Origin: Gracilariopsis chorda
Taxonomy: Eukaryota; Rhodophyta; Florideophyceae; Gracilariales; Gracilariaceae
Assembly (NCBI GenBank): GCA_003194525.1
Contig: NBIV01000042.1
Span: 186,001-250,000 of the forward strand
Length of the DNA: 64,000 nt
Reading direction: 5' to 3'
A program made the translations under genes and the position numbers. Each line of letters opens with the position of its first letter. Positions within the stretch are counted from its first letter, which is position 1. Under the pieces are notes generated by a model that was not told the origin of the DNA, made no database searches, and worked only from the letters and a program-made list of their open reading frames with translations. Positions 2,091-51,847 of this stretch are shown piece after piece.

Positions 2091-3083
2091 GGAGTGCACC
2101 GAAAGAACTTCGGGATATTTCCTCGTTAGAGGTGAGCCCAGTTAGGTAGAGCCCTCCAAGGAGTGGCACGACTATGTCGGGTTGTAAAGCCAAGGCCACC
2201 CGTCGTGACTTGCGCAGGGAGGTTGAAGTAAGGATCGGGTATCCGCAAGAACGGCGTATGGGGGTGGTCGACTTCTAGAGAGGTGAATTTTCCACGTTAG
2301 TGGCACGCGCGAACACGAGCCGTGGGTAGCGGGAAAGCCACCCTGTATAGGGATAGTAAAGGGGAGCTGAGTCACGAGTGTCGTGGCGAAGACTAACGGC
2401 AGTGCCAGTAAATAAACCTTATACAAATCGAACACCAAGACAGTTGGAATAACAATCCGAATACTCGGGTCCTTTAGATAGGCAAGGGGGTTAGACTTCC
2501 CGTATGCGACGGTGCTTCCCTCCAAAGAGGAGTACAGAATAAGCGAAGGCGGTGAGGTCTAGAGCCCATTCCCCAGGTTGGGGTCCCTTGTTGGGGAAGG
2601 TTTACTTGTGCGACGGCAACTCCCAGGCGCACTAAGTACTGACTATCTCAGAAAGGGGTGTAAAAATAGTAAATAAAATTAACTAAATTACTCCACTTTG
2701 GTTGTTCATGCCCACTACTGTGGCCAACCGCCAAATGACTCTCCCATGTCCTACATTTCCAATCCACTATTAGTGGTCGTAGGTCATGCAATGAATACAT
2801 TACCGAAACATTCGGGAAATCAACCAAGTACCAAGAATCCCTTCCTGACGGCATTGCACTTCAGGCATTACTTGGAAAGATGTTATGGCGTATGCACCAA
2901 TGGAAAATGACGGGGCTGAAGCGATCATTGGCATTCTGAAAATGCCTGTGACAAATAGTATCCCAGAAAGCCCCGAACCATGGTACAGAAGGTATTGTAC
3001 GTATGTACATCCCATAGCATACGTAATAATCCCTTTTTTTAAATTGCTGCATGGTGTGCACCTTTGCATGTCGCAAAATCATC
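2091..3083. other. No recognisable gene
   Basis: Only short unsupported reading frames occur here. The stretch may hold the 3' part and LTR of the preceding gypsy relic, but I could not find a matching LTR copy in the window. Confidence 0.3.
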
Positions 3084-22699: not shown

Positions 22700-22745
22700 C
22701 TAGTGTCTACTCGACCAATGGCCTCATATGAGGCCAAAACTGATT
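22700..22745. repeat. E1 left terminal inverted repeat with flanking CTAG
   Basis: CTAG at 22700-22703, then TGTCTACTCGACCAA and an internal palindrome GGCCTCATATGAGGCC. Its partner is the right end of E1 at 25531-25566. Confidence 0.85.
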
Positions 22746-25566
22746 GCCCTTCAATTTTTGTAAGCAAGGTGATTTTGTCAAGATTCTTGGTCCAGTACGT
22801 AGTTCGAAGTCTTGTTTACTCCAGCAGAGCTCAAGTGCAAGTCCATACTCTCATAAAGTTTACGTTTAACCACTTCAACGTCGTCCACTTCCAGAAAACC
22901 ATCACAATGACAACTACATCTGATATGTGCCGTACGGTCAGCAGCCAAGTCCACACATGTGCTCAACATGTGACCTCAGTTCCTAGCTGCAGAAGTTTTT
23001 CGGATCTCTTTGGAAGACCACTATGCAATGGTACTGTCACAAACGTGGGAACTGTCGAGGTAAGCAACCGAAATTGGTCAATGATCACTTGTTTTTTTGA
23101 GTTACCGGGCCAAACCACACAGTGTACTTTGCATCTCTGCAACGCTAAAGAGGGCAATTGTGTTGACGAAAAAGAGATATAAACTCAACTTCTGGAAGGC
23201 AGCACTGGCATTTGTAATGAAGAGAACACGGCTGAAGACCGGAGCAATGGCGATTTGAATGTGACAGAAATTCACGCTGCTCTACTTTTGTAGAACGTAA
23301 ATTTCACAGACGTTCAAGTTGCAGGCGACAAATAAGTGGAAGTACATGGCCGAAAGTGGATGATTTCTGATTTTTTGACGTCGTTAAATGGATTTGTGCA
23401 TTTGAATCAATGGACAGTCATTGGCGCAGCTGGAGATTCCATCACCACCCTTCACGCTCCAAATAATCTTACGCCATCTGACTGCTTTATGTGGATTTTT
23501 CCAAACACTTATCTGAAAGTGATTGTGGATAGAACTAATGATATTCCTTACTGCAAAGAATCTTCCAGGACTACTGCAGGAAAGATTCTAAAGTTTTTTT
23601 GGCATTCTCGTTTTGATGACTCGATTAGAGTTCTCAGACAGGCGTGACTTGTGGAGTCAAAAGTCTCGGTATCAGTATTTAGCATTCCCTGACCTTGGAA
23701 AAATTATGGCCAGGAACAGATTTGAGAGTATTAAAAGCTGCATTGTCTTTAGCGGAGATGAAAAGCGTGGCGAAGGTGGAGTTGCTCGTTGGAGTCTCGT
23801 CACGGATTTTGTGAAAGCAGTGAACTACTATCACCGAGCATTCGTCACTCCGTCTCACTCTATATGTGTTGACAAAAGCATGTCACGTTGGTACGGGCTT
23901 GGTACGGACTGGGTTGACGTCAGCCTCCCTCATTACAAAGCACTGAATCGCATACTCGAAAAGGGATGTGAGATAAAATCCGTTTGTTGCGAAGAAAGTG
24001 GGATTATGATGAGAATTGAACTCAATATGTGTTCAGAAAACAACTCAAATTCTTCGTTCTTTGAGAACCATCCGCATGGAACTGCTGTTCTTGTGCGACT
24101 GGTTGAGCCTTGGTTTGGAATATAAAGGGTCGTTTGCGCCGATTCATTTTTTGCGTCTGTCCAAACTGCGATTTCTCTATTGCAAAAGAGGTTAAGATTT
24201 ATCAGGGTTGTCAAGACTGCTACTAAAGAATTTCCTTTGTAACATTTGTCAGAATTGACACTTGCTCAAAGGGGAGAGCACGTTACGCTTCTATCGGGGG
24301 GAAATTTAGTTAACAAGAATCTCATGGCAGTTTAATGGGTGGATAGAGGTCGAAGATGTTTCATATCTACGTATAAAACCAAATGTACTGCTACTCTAAT
24401 CTTAAGAGAACGTTGGAAGAATGTCAACAACATCACCAAGATTGTGGAGATTAAAACCCTTAATCCAGAAGTATGCAAAGAGTAATATGGGTGCTGTCCG
24501 ATGATTGATCAGCACAATCAGTGCCCCCACGATGGCCTCAAACTTGACAAGAAAATAGAAGTTCAAGAATGGTCTTTCAAGGTTAATTGCTCGCTTTTGT
24601 CAATGTGCATTGTTGACGCGTGTAATATGTACAATTTAGCTAAAAAAGGACAATGTAACCCCAATCCGAGTACATTCTATACGAAATTGGCAGTTGAATT
24701 GATCGATAGTACCTGGGATACAACTAGCCTTATAGATAGAACCAACCAAAATTTGGATGATATCGAGTCAGGTCCGAAAAGAGCTGGTACTGGCATTCAT
24801 TTGATGCACGTCAGTCGCAAGCGTAAGAGAAGTAAGGGTACCGATACAATATCTCTTTACCTAGGACGCTGCAAAATCTGCAAATCAACGAAGAAGTCAA
24901 AGTTCATTTTTTACGATGGTTTTGCTTTTAAGAATGATTCCATTTTTATATATCATATTGCAACTGGTAGAAAATATTTTCCTGAGCATTTACGTGACTT
25001 TCACGGTGTTATGATAAGAAAAGTAGAAAAAGACGTAAACACATGCGTCAATCTCGTTCATTAAGTTAAAATCAAAGCTTTCATGTGCTGTTGAAAAACG
25101 CGGAAGTTCAATTACCTTAAGCCCCCTACTGATTCAATATGCGTTATCTTGCAAGATTTAATTACCTCCATGTCGAAACAACCACTCTCACAGATGTCAC
25201 TGTATTCTTTCTGTTCTTCAAGTGGGTGCGTATGCGTTCTTAGAAGTAAATATTACAAGAATCAGTCAAGATACCGAAGGAGTTTTTAGAGTTTTAAGAA
25301 ACTCAGCGTGGTTTGAACTCCGGTTTACTGCAGCTTCCCAACTCGTTGGAGCCAACTGAGCTGTTACACTTACGTATTGCCACAGATTTTGAAGCATTTA
25401 AGCACAAAAAAGGCATTGAAAATGGCTTGTTTGTGCTTAAAGTCTTTGAATTTGAACCCCCAGTTCAACAACTCTTCGTTTCTGAGCCGAAAGTCAAATT
25501 ATTTGTTTAGTTTTTGTCTGAGACTGGCTGGCCTCATATGAGGCCAACATCTTGGTCGAATAGACA
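22704..25566 (+). mobile_element. piggyBac-like element E1 (2,863 bp)
   Basis: Terminal inverted repeats start TGTCTAYTCGACCAA at both ends, each followed by the palindrome GGCCTCATATGAGGCC, a likely transposase-binding site. Both ends are flanked by CTAG (22700-22703, 25567-25570). It carries a decayed transposase in the plus orientation. Confidence 0.82.
22908..25064 (+). pseudogene. piggyBac-like transposase of E1 (decayed)
   Basis: DDE_Tnp_1_7-type transposase, which cuts and pastes the element. Readable blocks: N-terminal domain 22908-23182, central part 23336-24125, and C-terminal block 24501-25064. Catalytic aspartates are still present: CVDKSMSRWYG (codon 23871), VCADSFFASV (24141), WVDRGRRCFIST (24342), plus the IDQHNQ aspartate (24507). 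The C-terminus has the cysteine-rich LGRCKICKSTKKSKF, typical of piggyBac zinc-binding tails. At least a frameshift near 23630 and stops at about 24124, 24241, 24334 and 24484 inactivate it. Wording of the C-terminal part (QEWSFKVNCSLLSMCIVD) is close to piggyBac families I associate with oomycetes. Confidence 0.82.
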
Positions 25567-25610
25567 CTAGTGTCTATCAGACCAGCCACTTCATATGAGG
25601 TCAATTTTAA
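25531..25610. repeat. Junction of E1 and E2 with one shared CTAG
   Basis: E1 ends ...GGTCGAATAGACA at 25566, CTAG occupies 25567-25570, and E2 starts TGTCTATCAGACC at 25571. The result is a palindromic junction TAGACACTAGTGTCTA. One CTAG serves both elements. Confidence 0.88.
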
Positions 25611-28381
25611 CTACTGTAGAGTTTTATCAAAACCTTAAAACTTTTCCAAAACCTTTTCCGCTTTGATCTTTTCATCATATTTTCTACACCGACGGCGCTC
25701 ATCTATGTCCAAAACACATCAACATCAGTCGTAGCTGTCGAAACAACATTCATACACTATGGCCCCGTCCGCAGATCTTCGCAGAACTGTTGGAACAACT
25801 GTCAACAGCCATGCTCGTCTGGTTACAAATTACGCTGAATGCGAACGTTATCATCGATCTCTATGGAAATCAACAACGTTACAAGGTTCAATCCTCAATG
25901 ATGACATTCGAGAGGTCAACAATCGAAATCTCACTTTTCTGAGTGTGAAGTTTAGTCTACCGAACCGAGAAAAAGAAGTGACCCTACCTCTATTCAGCGT
26001 CAAACTAAGTAATGGTGTTGACTAAGCCGTTAATGCTGCAGAAGAACCTATTAAAGGGGTTAAACCCATTAGTATGCAAAATATCGAGAAAGATGCTCTT
26101 TTGACACCATCTCAGATGCATGTTTCGCAGCTGCAAACAAGTCAATTAAGCGAAATTGCACCATTCAAATCCACTGTGACTCATGGTCGTGTGTGGGAAA
26201 CCTGTACGAGGTTGAGTCCTCTGAATGGTTGTATGCAAATGCATCAGTGGAAAGTGGTTGGCCCAGCCGCAGATTTTACCTCACTGCGTCACGTTCATCT
26301 AAACATGAGCGCCTTAGATAACTTCCTTTGGATGTTCCTTATGCTTCATTTGCAGTTCATAGTGAACGGAGAAAATTTCTCGTTAGAAAGCAAAGACGCT
26401 CCGAGGACGTCAGGAGAAGAACTGCTCAACTTCTTGGGAAATCTTATCCTAGTGATTCGCATTGAGTTCTCTACCAGAAGAGGACTTTGGAGCCTCAAAC
26501 CCTTTTCTAAGTTCATTCCTCAGCCAAATACTGGTCTTGCGATGTCATCGAACAGATTTGAAACGCTTTGGAGTTCAATATGCTTCAGCGGAAATGGTGT
26601 GACTGAAGAGCAAGAAATTGCGTGTTTGTCCTTCGTAGCAGATCTACCAAAGGCAATCAATGACAATCGTCGTTCTTTTGTCATGCCATCACATGTCTTA
26701 TGTGTTGACGAAGGAATGTCATGATTGTACGGAATCGGCAATAGTTGGATTGATGTCAGGCTTCCACACTCTACGGCATTAGATAGAAAGCTGGAACATG
26801 GTCTTGAAATGAAGGCCGTATGTTGTGCACGAAGTAACATAATGCTGAACATTGAGCTCAATATGGGTGCTAATATTCCGGAACAAATTTTCCATTCTGA
26901 TAACGCCCTTGGAACGGCAGTCTTACTTCGCTTAGCGCCACCATGCTTTGGATCAGGAAGCTTGGTATGTGCGGATTCCATTTTTGCGTTTGTCAGTACC
27001 GCGAAAGCATTACTGGAGAAAGGTATAAGGTTTACTGGAGTTGTCAAAAATGCTACTCGTGAATATCCTATGACACATCTCTCCGAAAATACTCTCTCGG
27101 ACAGTACAGATTGTGTATCTATGCTATCAAAAGAAAGCATTATCGATAATGATATAATGGGTATAATGTGTATGGACAGAGAAAGAAGGTATTTCGTATC
27201 AACCTCTGGCACGCTTAATCCTGGTTCTTTTATTATTCGAGAAAGGCGGAGACAGGAGGGAACTATTTCTAGGAAAGCGGAATTGGGGGTCGCAACTCCC
27301 GAAGAGTGTGAAGAGTATTACAAAAAACCGTTTCAATGGTCGATCGCCATAACAGATGCAGACAAGATGATTTTAATCTGGAGAAGAAAACTGAAGTGAA
27401 AGAGTGGTCATTTCCAGTGAACTGCTCTCTCTTAGCAACTTGTATTGTGGACGCATGGAAGTTGTAAAAAGCCACAATTGGAACCAGAAACGTGAAGAGT
27501 CTGCACCACTTCTATTGCCAATTGGCTAATGAACGAATTGAGAATGCATGGCATACCACAGGCCTAATGAATAGCGATGAGGATGAATGTGAAAAGGTTC
27601 ATAAGAAGCCAATGTTTGCAGGCACTGGCTTGCAGTTAATACGAAGGAAAGGACGGAGAAAAACTAAGGATGGCAAGATTACGAAAGATCTATATCAAGG
27701 ACGATGCAATTCTTGAAAAGGTAATACAAAGTCCAAGTTTTTATGTTCTGGATGCTATATCAGGAGGAGAAAAGAAGTATTTTATGTCACACTGGTACTA
27801 ATAGGGATTTTTCATGAAACATATTGAAAAGTGTCACTGTACAATGAAGTTCGAAACCTGATACAGCTGTCAACAACCTTGTCAATCTTCGTTTTTATAG
27901 TAGAAATTTATGTCTGAATGCAAAAGTTTGCCATAAGTTCATTTTGACTTAAGACTCCTACTAATTCAATCCGCATTCCTTAGACTTGCTAGATTATTTA
28001 AATCTATGAAGAAATGGCCCCTTTAACAGATGTGATCGTATTCTTTCTGCTCTTCATGTTGGTGTTTAAAATGTTCTGATAGTTTAAATACATTTAGAGT
28101 TAGTAGAGCTCCCAAAGAAGTTGTGGAGTTGAAATAAACTCAGCGAGGTTCAAAGTCATGGTTTGTTGCTCGCATGTAGCCTGATGACCACTGAGCCGCT
28201 GTTATCCCTCAGTGGTCGTCTTCTACAACTACTTATAGTTCAAAGACAGCCCCGTTGGACATTCTTCAAGTTCAAAATTTGAAATGTGGGGCCATGCGGA
28301 TCATATTTCAGTTTCTGTTTTTTAATTTTGCATGCCTGGGCGCTCACGTCATATGAAATCAGCGCACCGGTCCGATAGACA
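25571..28381 (+). mobile_element. piggyBac-like element E2 (2,811 bp)
   Basis: The left end TGTCTATCAGACCAG and right end (reverse complement) TGTCTATCGGACCGG form the inverted repeats, with CATATGA-centred subterminal palindromes. It is flanked by CTAG at 25567-25570 and 28382-28385. It is related to E1 but strongly diverged internally, so a different subfamily. Confidence 0.82.
25759..27770 (+). pseudogene. piggyBac-like transposase of E2 (decayed)
   Basis: Start ATG 25759 (MAPSADLRRTVG), alignable with the E1 N-terminus. The main frame 26074-27399 is long and broken only by TGA at 26722-26724, where E1 has arginine (MSRWYG versus MS-stop-LYG); a CGA to TGA change explains it. Catalytic aspartates: LCVDEGMS (26707), VCADSIFAFV (26974), MCMDRERRYFVST (27175). 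A frameshift near 27340 precedes DRHNRCRQDDF (Asp at 27342), then EWSFPVNCSLLATCIVDAW, another stop, and the C-terminal LYQGRCNS cysteine tail (27492-27716). Better preserved than E1, but inactive. Confidence 0.84.
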
Positions 28382-28385
28382 CTAG
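28340..28385. repeat. E2 right terminal inverted repeat with flanking CTAG
   Basis: Reads ...CACCGGTCCGATAGACA to 28381, then CTAG at 28382-28385. Partner of the left end at 25571. Confidence 0.82.
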
Positions 28386-32587: not shown

Positions 32588-35500
32588 TTATTGGGTAATA
32601 CAAAGCCGCAAATGTATACAAGCCTTGACGAATGTTCGTATATCGGAGGTTAATGAGGACCAAAAGTAGTACTTCCGGAGAACATGTTCTGTTGTGGAAG
32701 GACCTCGATGTCCTCCAGGTCCGCAGTGAGCAATGATGCACAGGCGAAGCTGTAAATCAAACGCTTCGTCTGGAATCCACACTGCATTATTTGGATTGCG
32801 CCATAAACCGGTCTTGCAAGACAAGTTGGCCGGACGGTTTTGCCTGTAACAGTTTTGTATATCAGAAATTTCTTCTTCTCTCGGCCACACAAAATCTTTG
32901 TCTGTTGTTGAGGGAGGTGCAGGAATGTGAACAATTCGGTGCACTGTGCTTGGAGCTGACCATCGTCCGAGTAGATCTGCCCAAACATTATCAAGTCCCC
33001 TTATGTGAAAGCAAGTGTAGTTGTACAGACTCAGGCGTATTGCCCATCGTAGGACCTTACGAGCAGTAGTTTGAGATAGATCAGGGACTACTGATAGTGG
33101 ATCAAAAATGAAAATGAGGTTGTTATGGTCCGTATAAAGATCAAACCCATGCGGTGTGGAAGCAAGCCAGTGTAGGCGGTTCAGGGTTGCTAGTACAGCG
33201 TATGCTTCTTTCTCAAGAATCGACCAACCGAGTTGCGTTGAGTTGAATTGTTCTGATAAGAAAGCGAGTGGCTCATGTGCTTGTTTAGAGTGTGGTTTTT
33301 GTAAGTCTGTTACTGGTACTTGGGTCATTATGCCAGACCAATAATTATCGGACGCATCCGTGTAAACACAGAGGCGCTTGGATTCATCTCTGTGTGCTAG
33401 TGTTATTTGGTTTGCTAACGCGTTTTTGAAATCTTCAAATGCAGCGTTTTCTTTGTCTCCCCATCCCAGTGAAGATAGCCGTACACGAGCTACTACTCGT
33501 TTGGTTCTTTTTCCACAGAACTGGTATACGCGTTCCATAAATGTTTGCAGTGGGGCAGTTAGCTTGGTAAAGTCCGGGATTCCCAATTTCACCCATTGCA
33601 GTGCGCATAAAAATTGTTGGAGGTGTGATCCCGTCTGAGGTGGTTGCATCGAGAGTAGACCATCGAGGTTCCGAAGATCGAATTTGACTGCTTTTGCCGA
33701 AATAAGGCGGCCACACCATCGTACTTCCTTCGCAAACAAAACACATTTAGACGGGTGGAGTTTGATATTGAATTGAGAGCAGAACTTGAAGAATATACGT
33801 ATATTGTCGCATAAACTGTCCACAGTTCGGTTATGTAAAAGAATGTCATCGAGCCACGCGAGAAGCGCCTCGCAAAGGTCTTTCGGTAGGAGTTGGGCCA
33901 TGACTGATTGTAGATGAGTAACTGCATTAGTCGTGCCATGTAGGACACGCGTGGGTGAGTAAACACCATCAGGGGTGATGAACGACTGCAGTTCTTGAGA
34001 CTATTTCTCCAAGGGTAGTTGCCAGTACCCGTTTGAGAGGTCAAAGGTGGCGTAATACGAGGAGCCAGAGAGTTTTGTCAGCTCTTGCTCCAAGTTAGGC
34101 ATTGGGTAGTGATGTCGAACAGTATACTTGTTCACCGGTCGAAGGTCTACTGTGAAGCGATATCGCGCAGGACCTGGTTTCGGAACAAGCAATGGGGCGG
34201 ATGCCCACGCCGCTGTTGGGTTTGGATATGCCATTCCATGATCTACGAGTTTGTCCACGAAATTTGATAAGAATTTTCGTTGATCTTGCGAGTAATTGCG
34301 CAAGCGTACTCGCACCGGTTTTGCATCGGTTGTCAAGGAAATCTTTAACGGTGGTAATTTTGCAGGTGGTCCCGAGGATAGGGAGGTTCGAAAAATATCC
34401 ATGTGATCGTATACCGTCTTCTTCAGTATTGCATGAGAATCTGTAGGCAAACCACTTTCAAACGCTTTTTCAAGCATAGCGTCGATGCTGGATTGGATGT
34501 CATTGTGTTGGTCCAGGTCTATTGGTTCCAGCAAGGAAGGGTCTGGAAATGGATCCAATTCGTGTCGTTGGCGGTAGTAATTCGCTCGCGGGCGAGCATT
34601 GGCAGGGCATGGGTCGTTTGCTTGTTGTAGGCCTTCCAACATCATACGACTCACTGTACCCTGTTGCGTCGGTGATGAAGGGTATCCAAATTGTGAACAG
34701 TCGGTGCCATCCAGGGCCAGGCAGTTGTTCTCCAATATGGTTCTTGTATCAACATATAAATGCTGCAATACCGGTAAGCCAATGAGGAGGTTTTCGCAGG
34801 TTAGATCGTCATCTGCAACAAGATACGTCACAGTAATGAGCGCTAGTTGGCCCGCAACAAGTTGTAGTATTGTTCTCCGTGGTGTCCACGACCTGGAATA
34901 TTGAAAAAGTTGTGCTTGCTCGCCAGTTTTTAGAGCAACTTTTAAGGATACAGGATTGATGGATGTGAGCATTCCGATGCCCATGCTAGCAGCTCTTTCA
35001 GCGAGTTCATGAGAAATAATACTATGGTCACTGCCGTCATCACATCGGCCTTCAGTTGCGACGTTTTTGGTTCCATCCGAGAGGGTTATTCGACATGAAG
35101 GGTTTCGCAAAATCGAGTTATCAGGCCTTACGGGGTGTGTGAGCCGTCTAACAGCCGCTCTCAGATGTTCATCACTGCTCTTTGAGCTTTTTGATGAGTT
35201 TCGGTCGTGCCATTTTGGCAGTCGTCGATGTCGTTGCTTTTTGCGTCGTAAGTCCTTTTTCATTTGTTCCTTTTCTGCTTCATTCGCTTGATCGCAATCA
35301 TCAATCCAGTGCAACTTGCCTTCTGACTTGCATATGGGATGCGGGCAGGGTTGTATTGGGCAATGAGTATTATATTGGCCATGCGTTTGACTTGTCTTGC
35401 TGTGTCTAGGATCTGTTCCGGCGGCATCGGCTTTTGAGGTCAATATTTCTGTTCCCGAAAGCATTTTCTCTCTTAATCGTGCTTCTTTGTTATTTTGTCT

Positions 35501-35806
35501 TTTTCCGATTTGATTATGATAACTATTTTGGCTTCCATTGTCAATAAGTTGAAAAGCATCTGAAATGGTTAAGCAGTGGTCCATGAATCCTTTGAAATCT
35601 TTTTTTAAGTTGTGATGTGCTAGTTCGAGGTCTGATTGAATGCGTAAGCGCAATGACTCTGGTTTGATAGACAAAAGAACATGTTGCACAGCTATCTTCT
35701 CATGGGAATGCAAAACCCAGGAGAGACCGTGACGGCGGAGCAGAGTGTGGTAGGAAATGAATAAAGACTCCATGCGAGACCGTGCTTTAATATCTCGCAT
35801 ATCCAT
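32588..35806 (-). pseudogene. Gypsy-M gag-pol (gag end, protease, RT, RNase H, integrase start)
   Basis: One continuous frame interrupted by a single TAG at 34001-34003. The N-terminal part has a gag region and a knuckle-like CPHPICKSEGKLHWIDDC (CX4CX6HX4C), then a protease active site CDDGSDHSIIS. RT starts near AKPVRVRLRNYSQDQRKF, with FTVDLRPVNKYT and FDLSNGYWQLPLEK just before the stop, and WLDDILLH as catalytic motif after it. RNase H follows (VYTDASDNYWS, SILEKEAYAV, YTDHNNLIFIF), then the integrase zinc-binding HCGPGGHRG...ACIHL, where the sequence is cut off. Catalytic residues up to that point look intact, so inactivation is through the stop and the truncation. Confidence 0.87.
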
Positions 35807-36550: not shown

Positions 36551-38601
36551 ATGACACGATTGGACCAGAAGGACTTTATCCCACATTGTTGCTTTTTGGT
36601 GCTTTACCACGTCCAGCGAGGAAAGGGTGCGCCGAAACGCAGCTTCAGCGAGCAAGAGCAATGGACGCAGCAACAAAATCTGTACAGAAAGAACAGGCAG
36701 CCAACCGAATTGCATTTGGACTCAAACACGACCACGGCCCTAAGCGCGTAGAAGCCAGTGAGGAGCTTCGTAAGCTCCCTGCCGGGTCTCCAGTGTATAT
36801 CTATCGGGACAAGACGAAGAAGTGGGAAGGTCCCTTCCCTTTTGTGCAGATTGATGGCGAAATGGTAGTAATTCAACTTCCAACTGGTCGCAAGATCTTC
36901 AGATCTACAGTAGTTAAACCACTTGTTCGCTCCATTCTCCGTGAATGTTCTACTGCACAAAACAACTTTGAGGAACAATCTGTACCGAACATATCGAACA
37001 ATGAAGAACGAAAGGACAGTCCTTCGATTGGTGAACATCAGTGTGCGGTGATGTTTGGATCGACGAAGGTAGTCATTGCGCCATTCAGCGAAGGAGATGA
37101 GTTCAGCGATACACGTGAGAAAGAACTAGATGGTCTTATGAAGAATGGAACCTTCGAAGTAGTGAAGCTCTCTTCCGTTCCAAAAGGACAACAAATCTAT
37201 GGGACCCGATTCGTCGACGCATACAAGACGATAGATGGAAAGGATATCAAGAAGTCTCGACTTGTAGCACAGAACTACTCCGATCTTCAGGCCAGCTCTA
37301 TCTCTACGAAAGCTCCCACAGTCAGCAGACTCGGACAGCGCCTTACCGTTTGTCTTGCTGCGTGTTTCGCAGAATACCAATCGCACTTTCGTGACATATC
37401 CCAAGCATATGTACAATCCAATTCTTCTCTAGAGCGCAAAATCTTTCTGCGTCCCCCTCCTGAGATGGGAATAGCTGACGACGAGGTACTGCTTGCTCGA
37501 AAGCCGTTGTATGGCATACCAGAAAGTGGACTTCATTGGTTTTTAACGTATCAGTCGCACCATAGAGAGGCCCTCAACATGAAGGCAACCAAGGTCGACG
37601 CGTGCGTTTTGTATCGTCGGGATGGAGCCAATATAGACGGATTGACGACACTTCAGGTGGATGATTCATTTGGTCATGGATCTCATACGTTTCTATCAGA
37701 GGAGCACGAACGGTGCCAGTTCAAGTCCAAGCCGCGAAAGTTACTGCGGGAGAACGATGGAGGGGTTTTCAACGGTGTCTATATTTTTAAGGCTGCAGAT
37801 GGAACATACTCCATGACACAAACCGAGAAGCTTAAGTCTCTGAAGGCGGTTACAAATGCAGAAGAATTCAAGAGTGTTCGCACTGCGGCGCAGTATATTG
37901 ATAACTGTGTTCGTCCTGACATTTGCGCTGCCGTGCAGCTAATTGCTTCAGGTGCCGAGGGCCCAAGCGAAAACCAAATCAAGGCTCTTAACAACGTTGT
38001 TAAACACTGCAATTCCACGAGTGATATTGGCTTGCGCTACGTTTCTCTGGACGTTAGTTCCGCTTGCTTAGTGTTACTTACCGATGCCTCATTTGCGAAC
38101 ACAGCTGATTTGAAGTCGCAGCTTGGATTTGTTCTTCTAATGGTGGACAAGTATGGAAACGCGAACATTGTGCACTATGGCAGCTCAAGATGCAAGAGAG
38201 TAGCTCGGTCGGTAATGGCCGCTGAAATTCACGCACTTGTATACGGCTTTGATAACGCTTATATTGCCAAGAACATGCTCTCAGAGAAATTAGGTCGTAC
38301 TGTCGAAGTTCATGGCTACATTGACTCTCGGACCCTCTTTAATGTGGTGGCAAAAAGTGCTGTGACCCTGGAAAAACGCTTGCAAATAGACGTAGCTGCT
38401 CTCCGGGAAAGTCATGAAAGAGGTGAACATAGCAGTTTCTCATGGATTCCTAGTGACGAAAATATTGCTGATGCTTTGACAAAAGCTTGCAATTGGGTTC
38501 TTCATGCTTTATGGAGACTCATGTACAGCAACAGGTTCGAAGTAAGCGCCAAGGGATGGGTCAAAAGATTTGAAGCCGCTTCTTCAAAAGCAGAAAAGTA
38601 G
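36551..38601 (+). CDS. Ty1/copia pol fragment (integrase end, RT, RNase H), 5'-truncated
   Basis: Open for about 680 codons. It begins inside the integrase C-terminus (TIGPEGLYPTLLLFGALPR), so it has no own start codon. RVT_2 reverse transcriptase follows: GTFEVVKLSSVPKGQQIYGT, RDISQAYVQSNSSLERKIFL, RKPLYGIPESGLHWF and the catalytic LQVDDSFG (QVDD in place of YVDD, codons 37654-37665). RNase H has LLTDASFAN (Asp codon 38083), MAAEIHALVYGFD, YIDSRTL and WIPSDENIADALTKA. The wording is that of fungal-type copia. Gag, protease and most of integrase are missing because gypsy-M sequence lies immediately upstream. The frame itself has no lesion, so truncation was recent. It is a TE fragment, not a host gene. 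Confidence 0.88.
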
Positions 38602-42639: not shown

Positions 42640-45600
42640 ATGACTACCTCCAACTACGGTGTTGTCGCTGTCATTCAACCCCTGCAACTGAAATCTGTAG
42701 ATCAACCGGCTCTGATCGAATTCGAGACGGCCTTTGCTGCATACAGAGCCAAAGTCGAAGACGTGAACAACGACGGCGATGAAGATGCTAACCTAACAGT
42801 TGCCACGGTAAAGGATTGTGTGGAACCAAATGTATTACACGCCTTATGTGTTATGGGCGACATCGAAGCTGCTCAAACTGTCGAAGAGGCTACTGTGGAC
42901 AAAGTACAAGCTTGGTTTGAAAGAGCTTCTAGCTCATCCCCGAAAGACCTCGCTGAGCGTATCGATGCCGCACTTCGCATAGTCTCCTTCAAACTGAGCA
43001 AAGAAGACCCTGCTGGTAGTGTATCAAACTTTTTTATTTCAGTGATTACTGCGTTGGACCAGAACAACGCTTCAGAAATATTGAAGGACACTGACCTGGC
43101 AAAGAAGTTTCTTGACCGCCTTGTCGGGAAGTTCCAACCCGACGTACTGCAGGAACGCATTCGAATGATGAGGAGGGCATGGAAAAACGAACAGCTTGCG
43201 AATATCAAGCTCTTCAGAGATGAGGTATCCAACATCGTTCTCGAATTTGCCCTGACGGAAACTGCACGAGCACGTGTTAACCCACGTAAAAGCCGTAGTT
43301 TTCGTGAACGCAGCAAAGCAAACAACATAGATGTTGGTACCGGAAACCCAGAGATAACACCTAACGCAGATCCTGCGGTGTCAAACCGTCGTACCAGTAA
43401 GCGGAAAGACACAGAATGGAATAATCCGTGTCTTAATGAGGACTGTGACGGTGTTCATCGTCTAAAGGACTGTCACTTTACCTCTCCCGAGAAAAAGAAG
43501 GAACTTTTCGAGAAGCATTATGGAAACAAGAAGACTAAGAAAGCCAATAAGGTTACAGGTGTATCGAACGTGAGGACAAAAGGCCCGGACGGAAATGAAG
43601 GACGTTTCAGGGTAGCCTTGGAAGACACTGTGTTTGAAACAGTTCTTGGAGACTCTGGCGCAGATTTTAGCGCAATCGATGCGAAGACGTTCGACAAGGT
43701 ACAAGCTGCGGTTCAAAATATCAGAGTCAAGGCTTTGCCAACTCCACTGAACCTTGAAGGGGCTTTCAAATCAAAGGGTTCTGCAATCGCCACTGCGTCC
43801 AAAACGGCACTTCTCACAGTCACCATCTTCCTTCCTGGTTCTAACATTCCTGTTAGGGTACGTGGTATTGAATTCTACGTTGTAGATCGTGACATGGACG
43901 AAATACTACTTGGTCGACCTTTCCTTAACTCCATTGGATTTAACTTGAAAGACCACTTGGTCCAGATAAGGGACAGAATCCACAACAAACATTTGTTCGA
44001 CATTAACACCGAACAAATTAAACTCGCTATTGCCAAGTATCAGGGTTTGTCGTACATGGCTGCCGACGATGATGCCATCGAGTTACCGGAATGCCTGGCT
44101 GCCGGGATCGGCAAGGATAGCAAGGAGTCTATCGACAAAGCATTCATTCAAATCACCAAGGAAGCAACTTCAAACGGCATATCTCAGAAAGAATCCCAGA
44201 GGCTCGCTAAAATGCTTGAAGAATACCGCGCCGTGTTTAGAATCAAACTCGGATCGGACCCACCTGTCGATGTTCTTCCGCTTAGAATCACTGCTACTGA
44301 GACTTCCAAGCCATATAGATCTCCCTAACGTCGTTATGCACCGCAGCAACGGGATTTTATCATCCATACGATGCGAGAATTAGAGGCCGTTGGTGCCATA
44401 TACAAAAACCCTTCCGCTCGTTGGGCCTCGCCTGCCCTTGCAGTGCCGAATCCCGGACCTACCAAACTAAGGTTCACTGTGGATCTGCGCGGACCCAACG
44501 CACGCACCATACCGATTCAGTCCGCAATGCCACACCTTGATTCCAAGTTCCAGGACATTTCAGGAAGCACTTGCTTCGCCAATATCGACCTAGCGCATGG
44601 CTATTGGCAAGTTCCTCTGTCTCCGGAATCACAGGAAATGATGTCAATTCCAACTCCACTCGGCGTATACTCCTCCAAACGTCTTCTACAAGGTGGTAGT
44701 GACTCCGGAAATCACTTTCAAGCAGTATTGTCTGAAAATTTTGACGGACGCGTCGACAAGATGCTTCAATGGATAGATGATTTTCTCTTCTACGCGAAAA
44801 ACGAAGAAGAGCTGCTCAACAATATCCAATCTTTCCTTGTTGTCTGCAAGGAAATAGGACTCAAGATACATGCAGAGAAGTCAGCTCTATTTGCACACCA
44901 GGTCCAGTTCTGCGGAAGGATCATTTCGGCACAAGGTATAGAATATCATCCACGACATTTCAGCACATTGGTGTCCATGAAGACCCCCACAATGGCAAGT
45001 GAACTCCAACAGTTCGTATGCGCTACGAACTGGATGCGTAACGCAATCCCTGCCTACGCCGAGCGAATTGCTCCGCTGCACGCTCTACTCGAGGAATGTT
45101 ATTCCAAAGTCGGTAAGAGAACCAAGCAAGCAGTTCGCAACCTTTCCCTCAGCACCTCATGGGGCGCCACACATGAATCAGCTTTCGCTGACATCAAAAA
45201 TCAATTAGCCGCTTCGGTCAAGCTTGTGTACCCGAAATTCAAGCACATCCTATGTCTCTTCACAGATGCCTCAGAGACTCACTGGGCAGCCATTCTCACC
45301 CAGGTTCCGTACAAAGATCGGAACAAAATTATCGAGGAACAACCATACGAGCCCCTCTGTTTCCTTTCTGGAGCATTCTCAGGATCAGCATTCAACTGGT
45401 CCGTTCCAGAGAAGGAAGGCTACGCAATCGTAGAAGCAATGTGTCGATTAGAATACCTCGTTCTGGGCCATGAAGTAAATATCTTCACCGATCACGCTAA
45501 TCTGGTATATCTTTTCGACCCTTACGGACGCAATCCAGGAATGGCAAGACACACAGCAAGCAAATTAATGCGTTGGGCAATCAAATTAAGCGCATTTAGA

Positions 45601-47241
45601 TACGTTGTGGAGCATTTACCCGGAGAAAGAAAAGTTTGGGCAGATATGTTCACCCGGTGGGCTGTGAGACCCAGTTTTGCAGTACGCGCTGTATACGTTC
45701 CACGCGCCATGGCCTTGATGTACGCACCCATCAATCCAGGAGTAGACTCAAATTTTGACTGGCCAACTTTGAAGGACATTCGGCAGGCACAGGAACGCTC
45801 CGCTGAGTCACTGCCAACTGAGTTCACGACTACCAATGAAGGAGTTCAGAACTGTAATGGTGCCTTTTGGATCCCGAGTGATGAAGATCTACTCAAGTTG
45901 CGAATAATCATTGCAGCGCACACTGGTCATGGCGGTCATAGAGCTTTCAATGTAACTGCCACCGCAGTTAAGGCTCATTTTTACTGGAAGGGTATGGACC
46001 ATAACGTGAAGACGTTTTTTGAATCTTGCCTTCATTGCCTTTGCACACAGTCTGGTAAGATTATTCCACGTCCCCTGGGCCACGCCCTGCATGCAAATGA
46101 ACCAAATGAACTCCTGCATTTTGATTTCTGCTACATGTCTCCCGGTGAAGATGAGTTCCTGTACGTTTTAGTATTTAAGGACGATCACAGCAGATACGTA
46201 TGGCTCACACCAGCTACCAAGACCACTGCGGAAGTCGTCGCAAACGCAACGATCCAATGGTTTGCCGCTTTTGGCGTGATACAAAAGTGGGTATCTGATA
46301 GAGGTTCACATTTCAAGAACAAAGTTATCAGATTTTTGCAAGAGAAGACAAAGTCATCTCATCACTTTACACTCGCTTACTGTCCTTGGTCGAATGGAAC
46401 GGTGGAAGTTGTGTGTCGAGAGCTGCTGAGGACATGTCGTGCGCTGCTTTCGGAATACCAACTTCCCCACAGCTGCTGGCACAGCGTTTTGCCGGTTGTT
46501 CAGTCCGTACTCAACAATTCGTCGCTGCATCGTCTTCGGAACCGATGCCCTTTGACAGTCTTCACTGGTCACAAACAAGACTCTCCTATGACTGCAATCA
46601 CGCGCAGGATAGGTAAGAAGACAAAAGTTCTCAACATTGATGACGTACGACGACTGCAGCTGAGACAAATTGAAGATATGCAGTGCGCATTGAACAACAT
46701 GCATAAGGATGTCGCAGTTCGATCTGGCAAGAAACGTAGACAAGCAGTCGACCATCACAATCGAAAGACTAATATCCGTCCTATTAATTTTACCGAAGGG
46801 GACTTTGTTTTGCGCGGGGTTCAACAACGCGATCACACTCGTAAGCCGTCTCTAAAGTGGCTTGGCCCATATTGCGTCACAAAATGCCGGTCTGGATACA
46901 CCTTTTTCATCAAGTCTCTCGTGGATGGATCGACAATGGAGGTTCATGGTCATCGTCTGAAGTTCTTTCGTAATAAGGATTTTGAAGTCACAGAAGAACT
47001 ACTGGGCCATCTTGCGTATCAACAAGGCGAACTGCTTGTAATAGATCGCTTACTTGATCTAAGAAGGCAGAAAGGAACTACGGAAGTATTGGTAAAGTGG
47101 CGTGGTTTTACCGTCGACGGGACTGATTGGATTTCTGTTGAGTCTCTGCAACAGGACGTTTCAGCTATGGTACAAGAGTACCTGACGGAAGTATCTACAG
47201 CGGAAACTCCACGACAACGCGCTATCGCTGACCATCTCTGA
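42640..47241 (+). pseudogene. Gypsy-N gag-pol, one in-frame TAA
   Basis: 1,534 codons from ATG 42640, interrupted only by TAA 44326-44328 just before RT. Gag: QPALIEFETAFAAYRAKVED, knuckle-like CLNEDCDGVHRLKDC (CX4CX3HX4C). Protease: LGDSGADFSAID. After the stop, counted from ATG 44371: RT with FTVDLRGPNAR and WIDD (134-137), RNase H FTDASETHWAA (D299), integrase zinc region HTGHGGHRA...CLHCLC, catalytic D585 (LHFDFCY), D643 (WVSDRGSHF), E679 (NGTVEVV), 35 residues between the last two, and a chromodomain-like end VLVKWRGFTVDGTDWI. The integrase wording is typical of oomycete-type gypsy. Everything but the stop looks functional. Whether the stop is a lesion or is read through cannot be told here; gypsy-M has leucine at the aligned position, so TTA to TAA is the simple explanation. 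Confidence 0.93.
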
Positions 47242-47281
47242 GTAATCAAGTGTGGTTGTCACCTACTTAATTACAGGGCGT

Positions 47282-47689
47282 TGTTGTATAATACAGCCAG
47301 CGATTACGCGTCTGTCGCAGAAATAGGCTTGCAAATGTGCCACGTCTACTGTCTTCTGCGCAAATGCGTTCAGCATTGCGATAGAGCATACCATACTTAA
47401 TTGTATGGGTTGCGCGATGATAGCAATATCTAGTATCTTCAATAGCCCACGTCAGGCTGCGCAAGCTATCGTTTGGTCGAGTCAGTGTCAACTGACTCGG
47501 CGGGTGCTTATAAAGGCCATACGACTTCTAGGATGGCCACTCAGGAGAGGGGGCAACTCCCGTTGAGTGTACCCACTGTTGTTCCCCCAAGCTCGTCACT
47601 ACAGCATTCGCAGCCTTTTCGTGGCATCGTTCACCGTATTGTCTGCCGTTTTCGTTCTTTTCAGAACCGTACTCCAGTACTTAACAACA
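47282..47689 (+). repeat. Gypsy-N 3' LTR (408 bp)
   Basis: Same length and ends as the 5' LTR, five substitutions (about 1.2 percent). The purine tract before it is weak (TTACAGGGCGT). Confidence 0.95.
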
Positions 47690-47694
47690 ACATT

Positions 47695-48363
47695 GCCGTC
47701 TGTTTATTACGTGACCACGCAGATCTGTGGTACGCTCGTGCAACTCGCGACGGCATTTCGTTCCTGAACCTCTCAGTTCTGCAAGAGGGTATGCTAGCCG
47801 AATTTATGCCTGCAAACGAACGTGCAATGGCTCGTGTTGCTTTGATCCAACTACGACTGAATGGTTCCATAGAGAGACATATCGCGAGCTTTAGAGAACT
47901 GGTCGACATCTGTCACACCCCTGTGTCTGAGGCTTTTACGTTTATGCAGCTCTTGCTACCTCTGGTTTTCCGTAAGAAGTTATCCAAACGCTTTCCGGAC
48001 GGTAATCCTATATCGATGTCTGAGGTTTACAACTATGTCCGGACGATCTATATCTCGGAGAAGTGGAACAATGCGAGCTCTTTCCAACCCATTCAATCCA
48101 AAAGTTCTCACAAGAACAAGGAACCGTGGCAGAAAAACGCAAGTTCAAAGCATCCAGATCCGAGTCTGATCGGTAAGGATCCCGATGCTGTTTCTTGGGG
48201 ACCCGCCGACGTACGAAACGCTGTCGAGAATGGTGTGTATCGCGCCAACGATCGCTGCATGAAATGTGGCAAGAAGCCTTGGAGCGACCCTCGTCACCCT
48301 TGCGGCAACATTGCAGCTGATGCCGCAGCCCAGCGCTCACCGAATCACAGGGCAAGAAACTAG
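47695..48363 (+). pseudogene. Chromovirus-P gag, 3' part
   Basis: Resumes after gypsy-N with AVCLLRDHADLWYARATRDG, then a retrotransposon gag region (MARVALIQLRLNGSIERHI, LVFRKKLSKRFPDGN) and a cysteine cluster CMKCGKKPWSDPRHPC in place of a classical CCHC knuckle. Stops with TAG at 48361-48363. The junction is exact: the codon frame of the 5' part is restored if gypsy-N and one ACATT copy are ignored. Confidence 0.85.
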
Positions 48364-48446
48364 GAACTTCGCACACAAGTGCAAATCCAAGCAGTTAGAC
48401 GGCTCCACCGAAGCTCTCAGCCATCGACACTGCTCCGAAGGGCGAA

Positions 48447-49313
48447 ATGATCTACGAAGGTGCCTTAAATGGCCATAAGGTTGCCTTCCACCTCGATCCT
48501 GGAGCCTCCCACGCTTTCATGTCACTGAACTCGGCTCGTCTCTGCCAGCTTTCTCTCCACGCTTCCGCATTCCCCTTTACTGAACTTGGCAACAATTCAA
48601 CAGTTCCTATCTTCTTCGAGACACAAACGCACATCTCCCTCGGCGACTTGTCTATTCCAGTCTCGGTTTACGTTATCGAGATGAATGACAAGGATAACGG
48701 TCTACCATTGGTAACTGTAGGTCTAGAATGGCTTCGTTCTGCTCGCCCGCACGTCGACTGGAAGACCTACAACCTTACCGTACAGCGCGCAAACGGTTCA
48801 AGGTTCAATGTTCTTCCTCGGCAACTGATGCCCTCCCAGGCCCGCGTGAAGAAGCCAACTATCCCAACTGTTTCCTACAAACGCCTTCGTCGAATGGCAA
48901 AGAAGAAGGGATGCGAACTATATGCTTTGCGCTTACGCCCGTCTTCTTCCGTTGACTGCCACCCTGAATTGGCCTTCATAGTCGACGAGTTCCGAGACGT
49001 CTTTAAAGAGGAACTACCGTATGATCTCCCTCCTCAGCGGGAACAGGACTTCGAGATCAACCTGAAACACGACCAGCCACCTCCCGTACAGCCGGTCATT
49101 CGGCTCTCAAACGAAGAGCTCAATCTTCTCCGCAACACATTCGAAGAGCTCCTCAGCAAAGGACTCATCCGCCCATCTTCTTCTCCATTTGTTGCACCAG
49201 TTTTCTTCGTGAAGAAGAAGTCGGGACAGCTACGCATGGTCTGTGACTATAGAGGTCTCAACCGAATCACCATTCCGGACGCCACGCCTCTCCCCTCATT
49301 GACGAAGCACTAG
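48447..49313 (+). pseudogene. Chromovirus-P protease and start of RT
   Basis: ATG 48447. Aspartic protease with active site FHLDPGASHAFMSL, where the usual D-S/T-G is D-P-G, followed by GLPLVTVGLEWLRSARPHVDW. The RT N-terminus contains PFVAPVFFVKKKSGQLRMVC and RGLNRITIPDATPLP. Compared with chromovirus-M, one base is missing or extra near 49290 (CCTCTCCCCTCATTG), after which the true frame runs on into the next entry. The frame is offset from gag. Confidence 0.85.
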
Positions 49314-51847
49314 ACCAGGTTGCCGGAGCGAATATATTTACCCAGATAGACCTCGTGGGGGCCTATCATCAGATGCGAATTAAGGAAGAGGACTGCTACA
49401 AAACTGCCATTCGCACTCGCTTCGGCTCTTTTGAATGGCGAGTGCTCTGCTTTGGGCTTTGCAACGCCCCGGCCGCCTTCTCTCGCCTAATCGCCTCCGT
49501 TCTGAAACACCTCAATGGTCGCTGCCTCGTCCTGTATCTCGACGATATTTTGGTGTACAGCAGAACAATAGAAGAGCACAAAGATAACCTCCGAGAGGTT
49601 TTTGCCGCTCTAAAGAAACACCAACTATACGCTAAGCTCAGCAAGTGTGCGTTTGGTGTAACAGAAGTGGATTTATTGGGCTTTCATGTTTCGGACAAGG
49701 TTTCTACTCAGGAACGTCTAATTACATCTATCCGAGAATGGCCTACACCTACCATACTCCGCCATGTTCAGCAGTTTGTTGGCCTCGCTAACTTCTATCG
49801 TCGTTTCGTAAAAGGCTATGCTTCTAAACTACAGTCTATGACCGATGTCATCCGCAAACACGCGTTCGAGTGGTCTACAGAGCAAGACCGAGCTTTCGCC
49901 GAGATCAAAACCGTGTTGACCACTGCACCCGTTTTGGCTCACGCCGATCCGGATAAGCGCTTTGTTCTCGCCACGGATGCATCTAAGTACGCTGTTGGAG
50001 CAACGCTTTCTCAAGACGGACACCCAATCGCATTCATGTCGCACCGCTTGTCGGCAACAGAATCGAACTGGGATACCGGCGATCAGGAATTGCTGGCTGT
50101 GATGATTGCTTTACGAACTTGGGGCCCCTATCTTCGCGGAAGATATTTTACTCTTCTCACTGATCACGACCCAATCAGGTTCCTTCAGTCAAAGAGTAAG
50201 TTGACCGGGAGGCAGTGTCGTTGGCTCGACGAAATCCAAGAATACAGCTTCGACGTCAGGCATATTGCCGGAAAGAAGAACGTTGTACCTGACGCACTCA
50301 GCCGCAGACCCGACCACACTCCCCTGCAGCTCCACTCGCTTTCCGCATGCATGCCGGGGTTGCACGATCGCATTCGTGCGACCTACGCCGCGGATACCTT
50401 GGCCACTGAATTGCTTTCGCATCTCAGAGACAGTTCGCAGTCCACTCCCGCCCGTCTACTCCACTCAATAACGAACTTCAAGCTCATCGATGATCTCTTG
50501 TACTGGGAGGAGACCTCCTCTTTGAGGTTGTACATCCCTACACCAAACTTGCGATCTGAGTTAATGGATTACTTTCACGGAGTGGGACACCTGGGTGCTG
50601 ATAAGACCTACTGCTCGGCTGTGCGAAGCGTCTACTGGCCGCAGATGTATGGAGATATACTTCGCTTTGTGCGCAATTGTCGCCATTGTCAGTCTAACAA
50701 GTCGTCCATGACTTGCCCGAAGGGCTTACTGATGCCCCTACCGAACCCGAATCGTTTTTGGGAGATAGTCACATTCGACTTTCTGACTGAACTTCCCTGT
50801 TCGGACTCCGGACACGATGCCATCCTCGTCTTCGTCGAGAAGCTTTCTAAGTATACTATTTTCGTTCCAACCACGAAGGATGCAACGGCGAAGGACACTA
50901 TGGCTTTGTTCGAAGCACATCTTTTTTCGAAGTACGGTGTACCTCACACTCTCGTTTCTGATCGCGATCCCAAGGTCAGGTCTCGATTTTGGCGATCTCT
51001 TATGCAACTTCTCAATGTGAGGTGCAATATTTCTTCTGCTTTCCACCCGCAGACGGACGGACAATCGGAAAACATGATTCGTACCCTCTCTTCCATGCTC
51101 CGTACCTCCATTCAATCTTCGCCGTCCGACTGGAACCGCCTTTTGCCAACTCTGGAATTCAAATACAACGCTTCTCGCCATGGCAGCACACGACGAGCGC
51201 CATTCGAAGTCATTCTAGGGTACGTCCCCCATACCTCGGTCACAAGGTCTCTTCAGCACTGCACAGAACTCTCCGAAGAAGCTCTCAACTACATTGATCG
51301 TCGCAAGGCATTCGTTGCAATGGCCAGAGATAATTTGGCTAGCGCAGTGTCGAAGCAAAAGTTTTACGCTGACAGGACTCGTGCAGACGTCTCGTTTGTA
51401 GTTGGAAACTTGGTTCTCCTCCGTGCAGATAATCTTTCTCTTACACGACGCTCAAGTCTCCCGAAGAAGTGGCAACCACGTTTCATTGGCCCATTCCGCA
51501 TTCGCGAAGTCTTTTCGCTAGTTACCTACCGCATTGAACTACCTGCCACCATGCGCCGAGCTAATGATGTTTTTCATGTTTCGAGACTGAAGCTATTTCA
51601 CACTAACCAGCAGGGCCCGCTGGATATTGTCATTAGCAACGATGGAACGGTTGAACAAGAAGCTTGCGCCATATTGGATAAGAAAACGTTTAATCGCAAA
51701 GTTTTTTACCTGGTCCACCTTGTTGGAGAAGCTCGCGAAGACGCGGTTTGGCTTCCTCGAACTTCGCTTTCGAATTGCAAGGAACTGTTGGCATCTTTTC
51801 AAAACTCTAAGACTTCGCTGGGACAGCTTCAGCCCAAAACGGGGTGA
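49314..51847 (+). CDS. Chromovirus-P RT, RNase H, integrase, chromodomain
   Basis: Intact open frame (an in-frame GTG at 49355; real translation would enter from upstream). Positions below are counted from 49355. RT: IDLVGAYHQMRIKEED just before and after it, catalytic YLDD at 61-64. RNase H: LATDASKYAVGATLSQ (D208), DQELLAV, LTDHDPIRF. Integrase: zinc region GVGHLGADKTY...CRHCQ, catalytic D475 (VTFDFL), D536 (VSDRDPK) and E572 (DGQSENM), the last two 35 residues apart. C-terminus: LVLLRADNLSL and a chromodomain-like ACAILDKKTFNRKVFYLVHL with AREDAVWLPR. Chromodomains steer integration to particular chromatin. All catalytic residues present. Ends TGA at the polypurine tract. Confidence 0.93.

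Follow-up and report, generated by a model that had tools for sequence, protein, structure and literature searches.

Two abutting, decayed transposable elements, designated E1 and E2, were identified in the window (the whole 64-kb stretch of DNA that was analysed), and their borders and relatives indicate that they are very probably cut-and-paste transposons belonging to the piggyBac superfamily, with a transposase that uses CTAG as its insertion site and generates a duplicate of this tetranucleotide. The most likely explanation is that the outer base pair of the target has changed (T·A to C·G) within a piggyBac lineage, with the inner TA being kept.

Organisation of E1 and E2

The elements lie in the order CTAG-E1-CTAG-E2-CTAG and both carry TGTCTA...TAGACA ends. 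This layout had been proposed in an earlier, sequence-only reading of the same DNA, and the three CTAGs and both sets of ends were found exactly where it had placed them. The left target-site copy of E1 (22700..22703) was seen directly and is supported by the genome-wide end and pair counts. E1 itself (22704..25566, + strand; 2863 bp) was assigned to the CTAG lineage of the piggyBac superfamily on the basis of its ends, its flanks and a match to PF13843. Its terminal repeats, i.e. TGTCTACTCGACC at the left (22704..22716, + strand) and TGTCTATTCGACC, read on the - strand, at the right (25554..25566), were recognised in the sequence and by the end-pattern search, while the palindrome GGCCTCATATGAGGCC occupies a subterminal position at both the left (22720..22735) and right (25530..25545) end. 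Similar palindromes occur at other element ends, and the left one of E1 is possibly a transposase binding site. The transposase remnant of E1 (23577..24608, + strand; C42:209577-210608) was located by a profile match to PF13843 positions 37-344 and contains five in-frame TAA codons.

The CTAG common to both elements (25567..25570), evident from the sequence and from the survey of joints, is followed by E2 (25571..28381, + strand; 2811 bp), which was delimited by its ends and flanks and is approximately 87% identical to L004, a near-intact copy of family B. The terminal repeats of E2, identified as for E1, are TGTCTATCAGACC (25571..25583, + strand) and TGTCTATCGGACC, read on the - strand (28369..28381), beyond which its right target-site copy, CTAG, is found in the sequence at 28382..28385. 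A PF13843 profile match extends over 26350-27324 (C42:212350-213324) with one in-frame TGA, and open reading frames with Pfam matches encode transposase fragments of 216 aa (26074..26724, + strand; PF13843 positions 15-134) and 224 aa (26725..27399, + strand; PF13843 positions 146-307). The transposase frames are broken in both E1 and E2.

The 64-kb window is rich in transposable elements. It harbours a 540 aa open frame for a Plavaka-type transposase (PF18759; 14863-16482, - strand), as well as reverse transcriptase, RNase H and integrase domains of LTR-type retroelements and an RVT_2 frame (32591-35806, - strand; 44371-51844, + strand; 36586-38598, + strand). A search of the window against Rfam families at gathering thresholds returned no match.

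Related families and copies

The assembly searched comprises 91.3 Mb in 1081 contigs and contains at least 119 matches to PF13843. Genes for chlorophyll a-b binding proteins were likewise detected (15 matches, some of them weak or partial), which makes an alga the probable host; the size and base composition of the genome would suit a red alga. Near-intact autonomous copies of the CTAG type are 2.8-2.9 kb in length, with transposase frames, counted from the first ATG, of 700 aa in L008 (family B) and 709 aa in L002 (family A). Copies of family A are 98.7-99.0% alike and those of family B 98.4-99.5% among the pairs listed; this high identity points to a recent spread, and the CTAG-type group has therefore probably been active recently. 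Additionally, two miniature families of approximately 368 and 370 bp bear the same terminal repeat, the second having the ends of family B.

Tetranucleotides flanking the element ends

A search with the element-end pattern, from which the flanking bases had been omitted, detected 326 places genome-wide, while the reversed pattern, employed as a control, detected none. CTAG directly precedes 262 of these 326 ends. The background in the window amounts to 126 CTAG and 160 TTAA in 58,290 positions, so that CTAG is enriched approximately 370-fold at element ends and its occurrence at the borders of E1 and E2 is not attributable to chance. Among the fetched loci, which were the first listed or best scoring and thus represent a non-random sample, CTAG was present at 88 of 104 non-abutting ends, and the inner TA was retained in 11 of the remaining 16. 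In one spacing class (eight bases between GACC and CATATGA), the 15 ends with a base other than C in the first flanking position were preceded by GTAG (6), TTAG (4), ATAG (3), ATAA (1) and ATCT (1), and TTAA was not encountered among them.

Start-end pairs could be compared in 53 cases, drawn from 79 deduplicated rows with 26 single-ended rows left out; one pair (L062 759-1498) covers two abutting elements. CTAG was present on both sides in 38 pairs, TTAG on both sides in one (L031) and CGAG on both sides in another (L063), while the two sides were unlike in 13. As the same non-palindromic tetramer occurs on both sides in the TTAG and CGAG pairs, these borders show that a 4-bp target, mostly CTAG, is duplicated at insertion; such direct repeats of non-palindromic words are not predicted by a model in which CTAG belongs to an inverted repeat. 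The expectation of the sequence-only reading that other copies with such ends would also be bordered by CTAG was thus borne out at 262 of 326 ends and on both sides of 38 of 53 pairs, albeit with the caveat that 64 of the 326 ends lack CTAG in front.

Runs such as CTAGCTAG, CTACTAG and CTAGTAG were observed directly outside elements at L015, L017, L019, L020, L027, L049, L054, L057 and L073. By eye, a second CTA or CTAG right outside the tetramer was counted at ten of the 104 non-abutting ends (from 12 listed), as against approximately two expected from a rough hand estimate. These tracts suggest excision footprints, which may reflect occasional imperfect excision in a superfamily for which seamless excision is customary.

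Empty paralogous sites

The sequence-only reading had proposed comparison with empty sites in other strains or at paralogous loci, and paralogous loci were used. Among 34 joined loci, L048, L057 and L067 were set aside since their flank is another element, leaving 31 loci for examination; 30 served as queries, L051 was assessed among the fetched loci, and the best candidates were scored. By their match ranges, 68 matches (22+40+3+3) crossed a junction, and 25 were read base by base. A junction-spanning empty paralogue was identified for ten of the 31 loci, including the window locus, while none was seen among the best-scoring candidates for the other 21. All 25 empty copies read have just one tetranucleotide at this point and align there without gaps, the nearest gap being located two bases beyond the tetramer in a window copy (2559-2739) that is 85% alike.

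The tetranucleotide in these 25 copies was CTAG in ten, CTAC in five, CTGG in three, CTAA in two, and CCAG, CTTG, CTAT, CTGA and TTAA in one each; hence, 15 differ from CTAG by one or two bases. Every empty copy read contained CTAG at four of the ten loci (L006, L046, L071 and L074), while only variant tetramers were found at five (L043, L047, L052, L053 and the window locus). At the remaining locus, L051, the closest copy, identical at 197 of 200 bases, contained CTAG, a 95% copy CTAT and an 85% copy CTGA; the latter, at window positions 2559-2739, is a diverged copy of the repeat that hosts the L051 element and crosses the insertion point. CTAG was read in each of the eight fetched copies at L006, L071, L074 and L051, whose aligned spans are 93-99% alike. 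At the window locus, the three empty paralogues contain neither E1 nor E2, are 73-76% alike within the matched region and carry CTAA, CTAA and TTAA. At the variant loci the element is likely to have picked the copy whose own sequence formed CTAG. The contrary outcome named beforehand, namely a CTAG located within the inverted repeat and a different duplication outside it, was seen neither in the pairs nor in the 25 empty copies.

Joints between abutting elements

A survey of joints between abutting elements yielded 23 cases (those on C619 and C620 may represent two assemblies of one locus), of which 15 share CTAG, one ATAG and one TTAG, while six consist of the two bases AG/CT. The AG/CT joints, which involve varied element combinations, are situated at C15:273214, C28:123497, C36:319453, C47:244060, C52:215554 and C72:236644. 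Joint spacings from 0 to 10 were surveyed, and none other than four and two bases was found.

The sequence-only reading had pointed out that a single CTAG between E1 and E2 would be expected if E2 had inserted into the target copy of E1. The shared CTAG was confirmed, while insertion is but one possible route to it: the elements may have been joined end to end via CTAG overhangs, or a composite may have moved as one. That 17 of 23 joints share one tetramer, where 0.1-0.3 would be expected under random choice among CTAGs, would suit such joining, as would the restriction of the other six to exactly AG/CT. Joining or composite movement is nonetheless rather unlikely, given that elements of the Pokey type are known to insert into a flanking target copy, as the accessible part of the source describes for 23% of mPok and 7% of Pokey (PMC3849761), and that the joined pairs, being unlike in element type and orientation, do not represent a single composite copied repeatedly. 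The tandem arrangement as such is not new, since neighbours sharing a target are described for Pokey in the same source (PMC3849761).

A TTAA family in the same genome

The genome also contains a second piggyBac-type family (L039-L042) with a PF13843 transposase, a TTAA target and CCCTTTTGA-type ends, which was employed as a control. Both families were subjected to an end scan in which any tetramer and up to two mismatches were allowed. For each of L039, L040, L041 and L042 a single solution, TTAA followed by CCCTTTTGA-type ends, was obtained (L039-L041 share flanks and were counted as one insertion), and CTAG alone was returned for L008, L044, L050 and L046. In the case of family A (L001-L003), better-matching GGCC solutions, which stem from palindromes inside the ends, were found besides CTAG. 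The end pattern of the TTAA family was located at 14 places in the genome, ten of which were preceded by TTAA (seven of 11 after places with the same flanks were merged); the other four were preceded by CTAG, TTCA, TGAA and CTAA. The end preceded by CTAG is that of L102 (C16:93821-93870).

Alternative readings of the target

Other superfamilies commonly target TA alone, and the inner TA found in 11 of 16 non-abutting ends lacking CTAG would accord with such a target, in which case the ends would read AGTGTCTA...TAGACACT and the outer C and G would be context or chance. This is very improbable, however, as the outer C is constrained, with the whole of CTAG present at 88 of 104 non-abutting ends, and as in the TTAG and CGAG pairs the whole tetramer recurs on either side; a TA-only target is rejected since the outer bases are both constrained and duplicated. 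It is scarcely credible that the terminal inverted repeat includes CTAG as its outermost bases, with the true duplication elsewhere or absent. While CTAG is itself palindromic and present at most ends, as this would demand, the TTAG and CGAG pairs are direct and not inverted repeats, the empty sites keep one tetranucleotide, CTAG or one near to it, and the listed pairs display no second duplication outside. The direct-repeat variants and the empty sites together led to the rejection of CTAG as a part of the inverted repeat.

A relaxed TTAA transposase may merely tolerate CTAG, with the bias being due to host base composition or selection. Known piggyBac elements do sometimes use TTAT, ATAA, CTAA or TTAG, as recorded in the accessible parts of two papers (PMC3849761, PMC10813416), but CTAG (126) is not commoner than TTAA (160) in the 58,290 background positions, TTAA is found at none of the 15 ends with a non-C first flanking base in the spacing class described above, and the TTAA family of the same genome mostly keeps TTAA (ten of 14 listed ends, seven of 11 merged). 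Such relaxation is accordingly most improbable, and a switch of target to CTAG remains the preferred reading.

The transposase

The transposases of the CTAG families match PF13843 (DDE_Tnp_1_7) above the curated cut-off, and their best solved relative is piggyBat (structure 9c0f; E = 1.1e-12), while the match to the T. ni piggyBac sequence is weak (E = 0.057). In L008 (family B) and L002 (family A) a DDD triad aligns to T. ni D268, D346 and D447. The position of T. ni D450 is N in the transposases of both (P0001, P0004), and H replaces the third catalytic D in the otherwise full-length frame of L050 (P0005). Identity of L008 and L002 to pieces of piggyBat and T. ni piggyBac is 21-23%, the alignment to the latter covering pieces only, with residues 381-425 missing. 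The CTAG and TTAA transposases are deeply diverged, with 19-23% identity. As regards the cysteine-rich domain that the superfamily carries at its C-terminus, a C/H-rich tail was identified by eye in the proteins of families A and B, and a Pfam scan of P0001 found no separate domain in it.

The PF13843 transposase, the DDD triad and the 4-bp target duplication are all features of the piggyBac superfamily, to which the CTAG lineage belongs by homology. It departs from custom in two respects, target and ends: CTAG, and not TTAA, is present at 262 of 326 ends, and the terminal repeats begin with TGTCTA and not with a CCCT-type start. T. ni piggyBac has CCCT-type ends. Among animal piggyBac ends CCCTT is the commonest, with CACTA also listed, in the accessible part of PMC10813416. 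The earlier proposal of a piggyBac lineage with a changed, CTAG specificity is supported by the ends, pairs and empty sites, with the transposase identified by PF13843 and the DDD triad. Against it speak the 64 ends without CTAG, the 13 unlike pairs, the 15 variant empty copies, the six two-base joints, the GGCC solutions for family A and the H of L050.

In the accessible text of the structural study of the T. ni strand-transfer complex, the melted TTAA is held by a stabilising network that the omega loop organises, A3 bonds T0, and it is argued that any other nucleotide at T0 would leave the T0-A3 hydrogen bond unsatisfied (PMC7351741). Families A and B have an omega loop, measured between the first D and G292, that exceeds that of T. 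ni piggyBac by seven residues; the equivalent of Y283 is kept, while those of R275, R277 and K290 are absent. In the TTAA family the loop is of usual length and keeps the equivalents of R277 and K290, with K at R275. R275, Y283 and K290 are named in that text (PMC7351741), and R277 was added in the present comparison. We hypothesise, from this correlation between deeply diverged proteins, that the altered omega loop reads the new outer pair; a C0-G3 N3-N1 contact is conceivable.

Proposed mechanism and significance

Transposition would begin with a 3' nick at each element end, following which the nicked end would attack the flank four bases away and generate a hairpin carrying CTAG. The donor could then be rejoined via its self-complementary CTAG overhangs, while the hairpin would open and be joined in a staggered manner to a melted CTAG target. 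With less certainty, it may be that only the outer pair has changed relative to TTAA (T0·A3 to C0·G3), the inner TA being unchanged, and the remodelled omega loop may read the C0·G3 pair. The single CTAG of E1 and E2 would have resulted from insertion of one element into the duplicated target of the other or from joining by CTAG ends before insertion. The evidence is evenly balanced as regards the full scenario, i.e. a natural switch from TTAA to CTAG through the outer T·A to C·G change and a longer omega loop, with TTAA relatives persisting in the same genome and insertions strongly favouring CTAGs that flank their own kin.

Targeting of TTAA is regarded as a hallmark of piggyBac, and with a natural C0/G3 family the structural model can be put to the test through comparisons and exchanges of the loop. 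CTAG would furthermore represent a second target for a transposon that is widely used in genome engineering. Miniature elements have been assigned to piggyBac in annotation by their TTAA duplication, according to the accessible part of PMC5907361, and annotation of this kind would miss the CTAG group. No CTAG-targeting piggyBac was noticed in the literature searched (Repbase and most subscription journals lay outside the search), and novelty of CTAG targeting is accordingly claimed provisionally. A single scan of viral contigs for relatives returned 18 stretches matching the peptide pattern, none of which was confirmed.

Comparison with known systems

The CTAG lineage may be likened, by target alone, to the bacterial IS5-type insertion sequences, whose 4-bp YTAR targets include CTAG. 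The target of piggyBat is TTAA. This element, from Myotis lucifugus (9c0f), shares the DDD triad, but its omega loop is shorter and of the usual form. The TTAA family L039-L042 likewise has a transposase of the same superfamily, in contrast to the CTAG lineage combining it with TTAA on both sides at its four scanned loci, CCCTTTTGA-type ends and the usual omega-loop length. T. ni piggyBac (6x67/6x68) resembles the CTAG lineage in its DDD transposase, its 4-bp palindromic target with an inner TA, its cut-and-paste mode and its inverted ends, whereas the CTAG lineage differs in using CTAG and not TTAA, in its TGTCTA ends, and in a longer omega loop without equivalents of R275, R277 and K290. Pokey and mPok of Daphnia are similar in having 4-bp targets with an inner TA and variants thereof (TTAT, ATAA and CTAA), tandem neighbours that share a target, and miniature relatives, as described in the accessible part of PMC3849761. 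Unlike in the CTAG lineage, TTAA accounts for 88% of insertions and CTAA for 0.85%, with CTAG being absent from the table shown in that source (PMC3849761).
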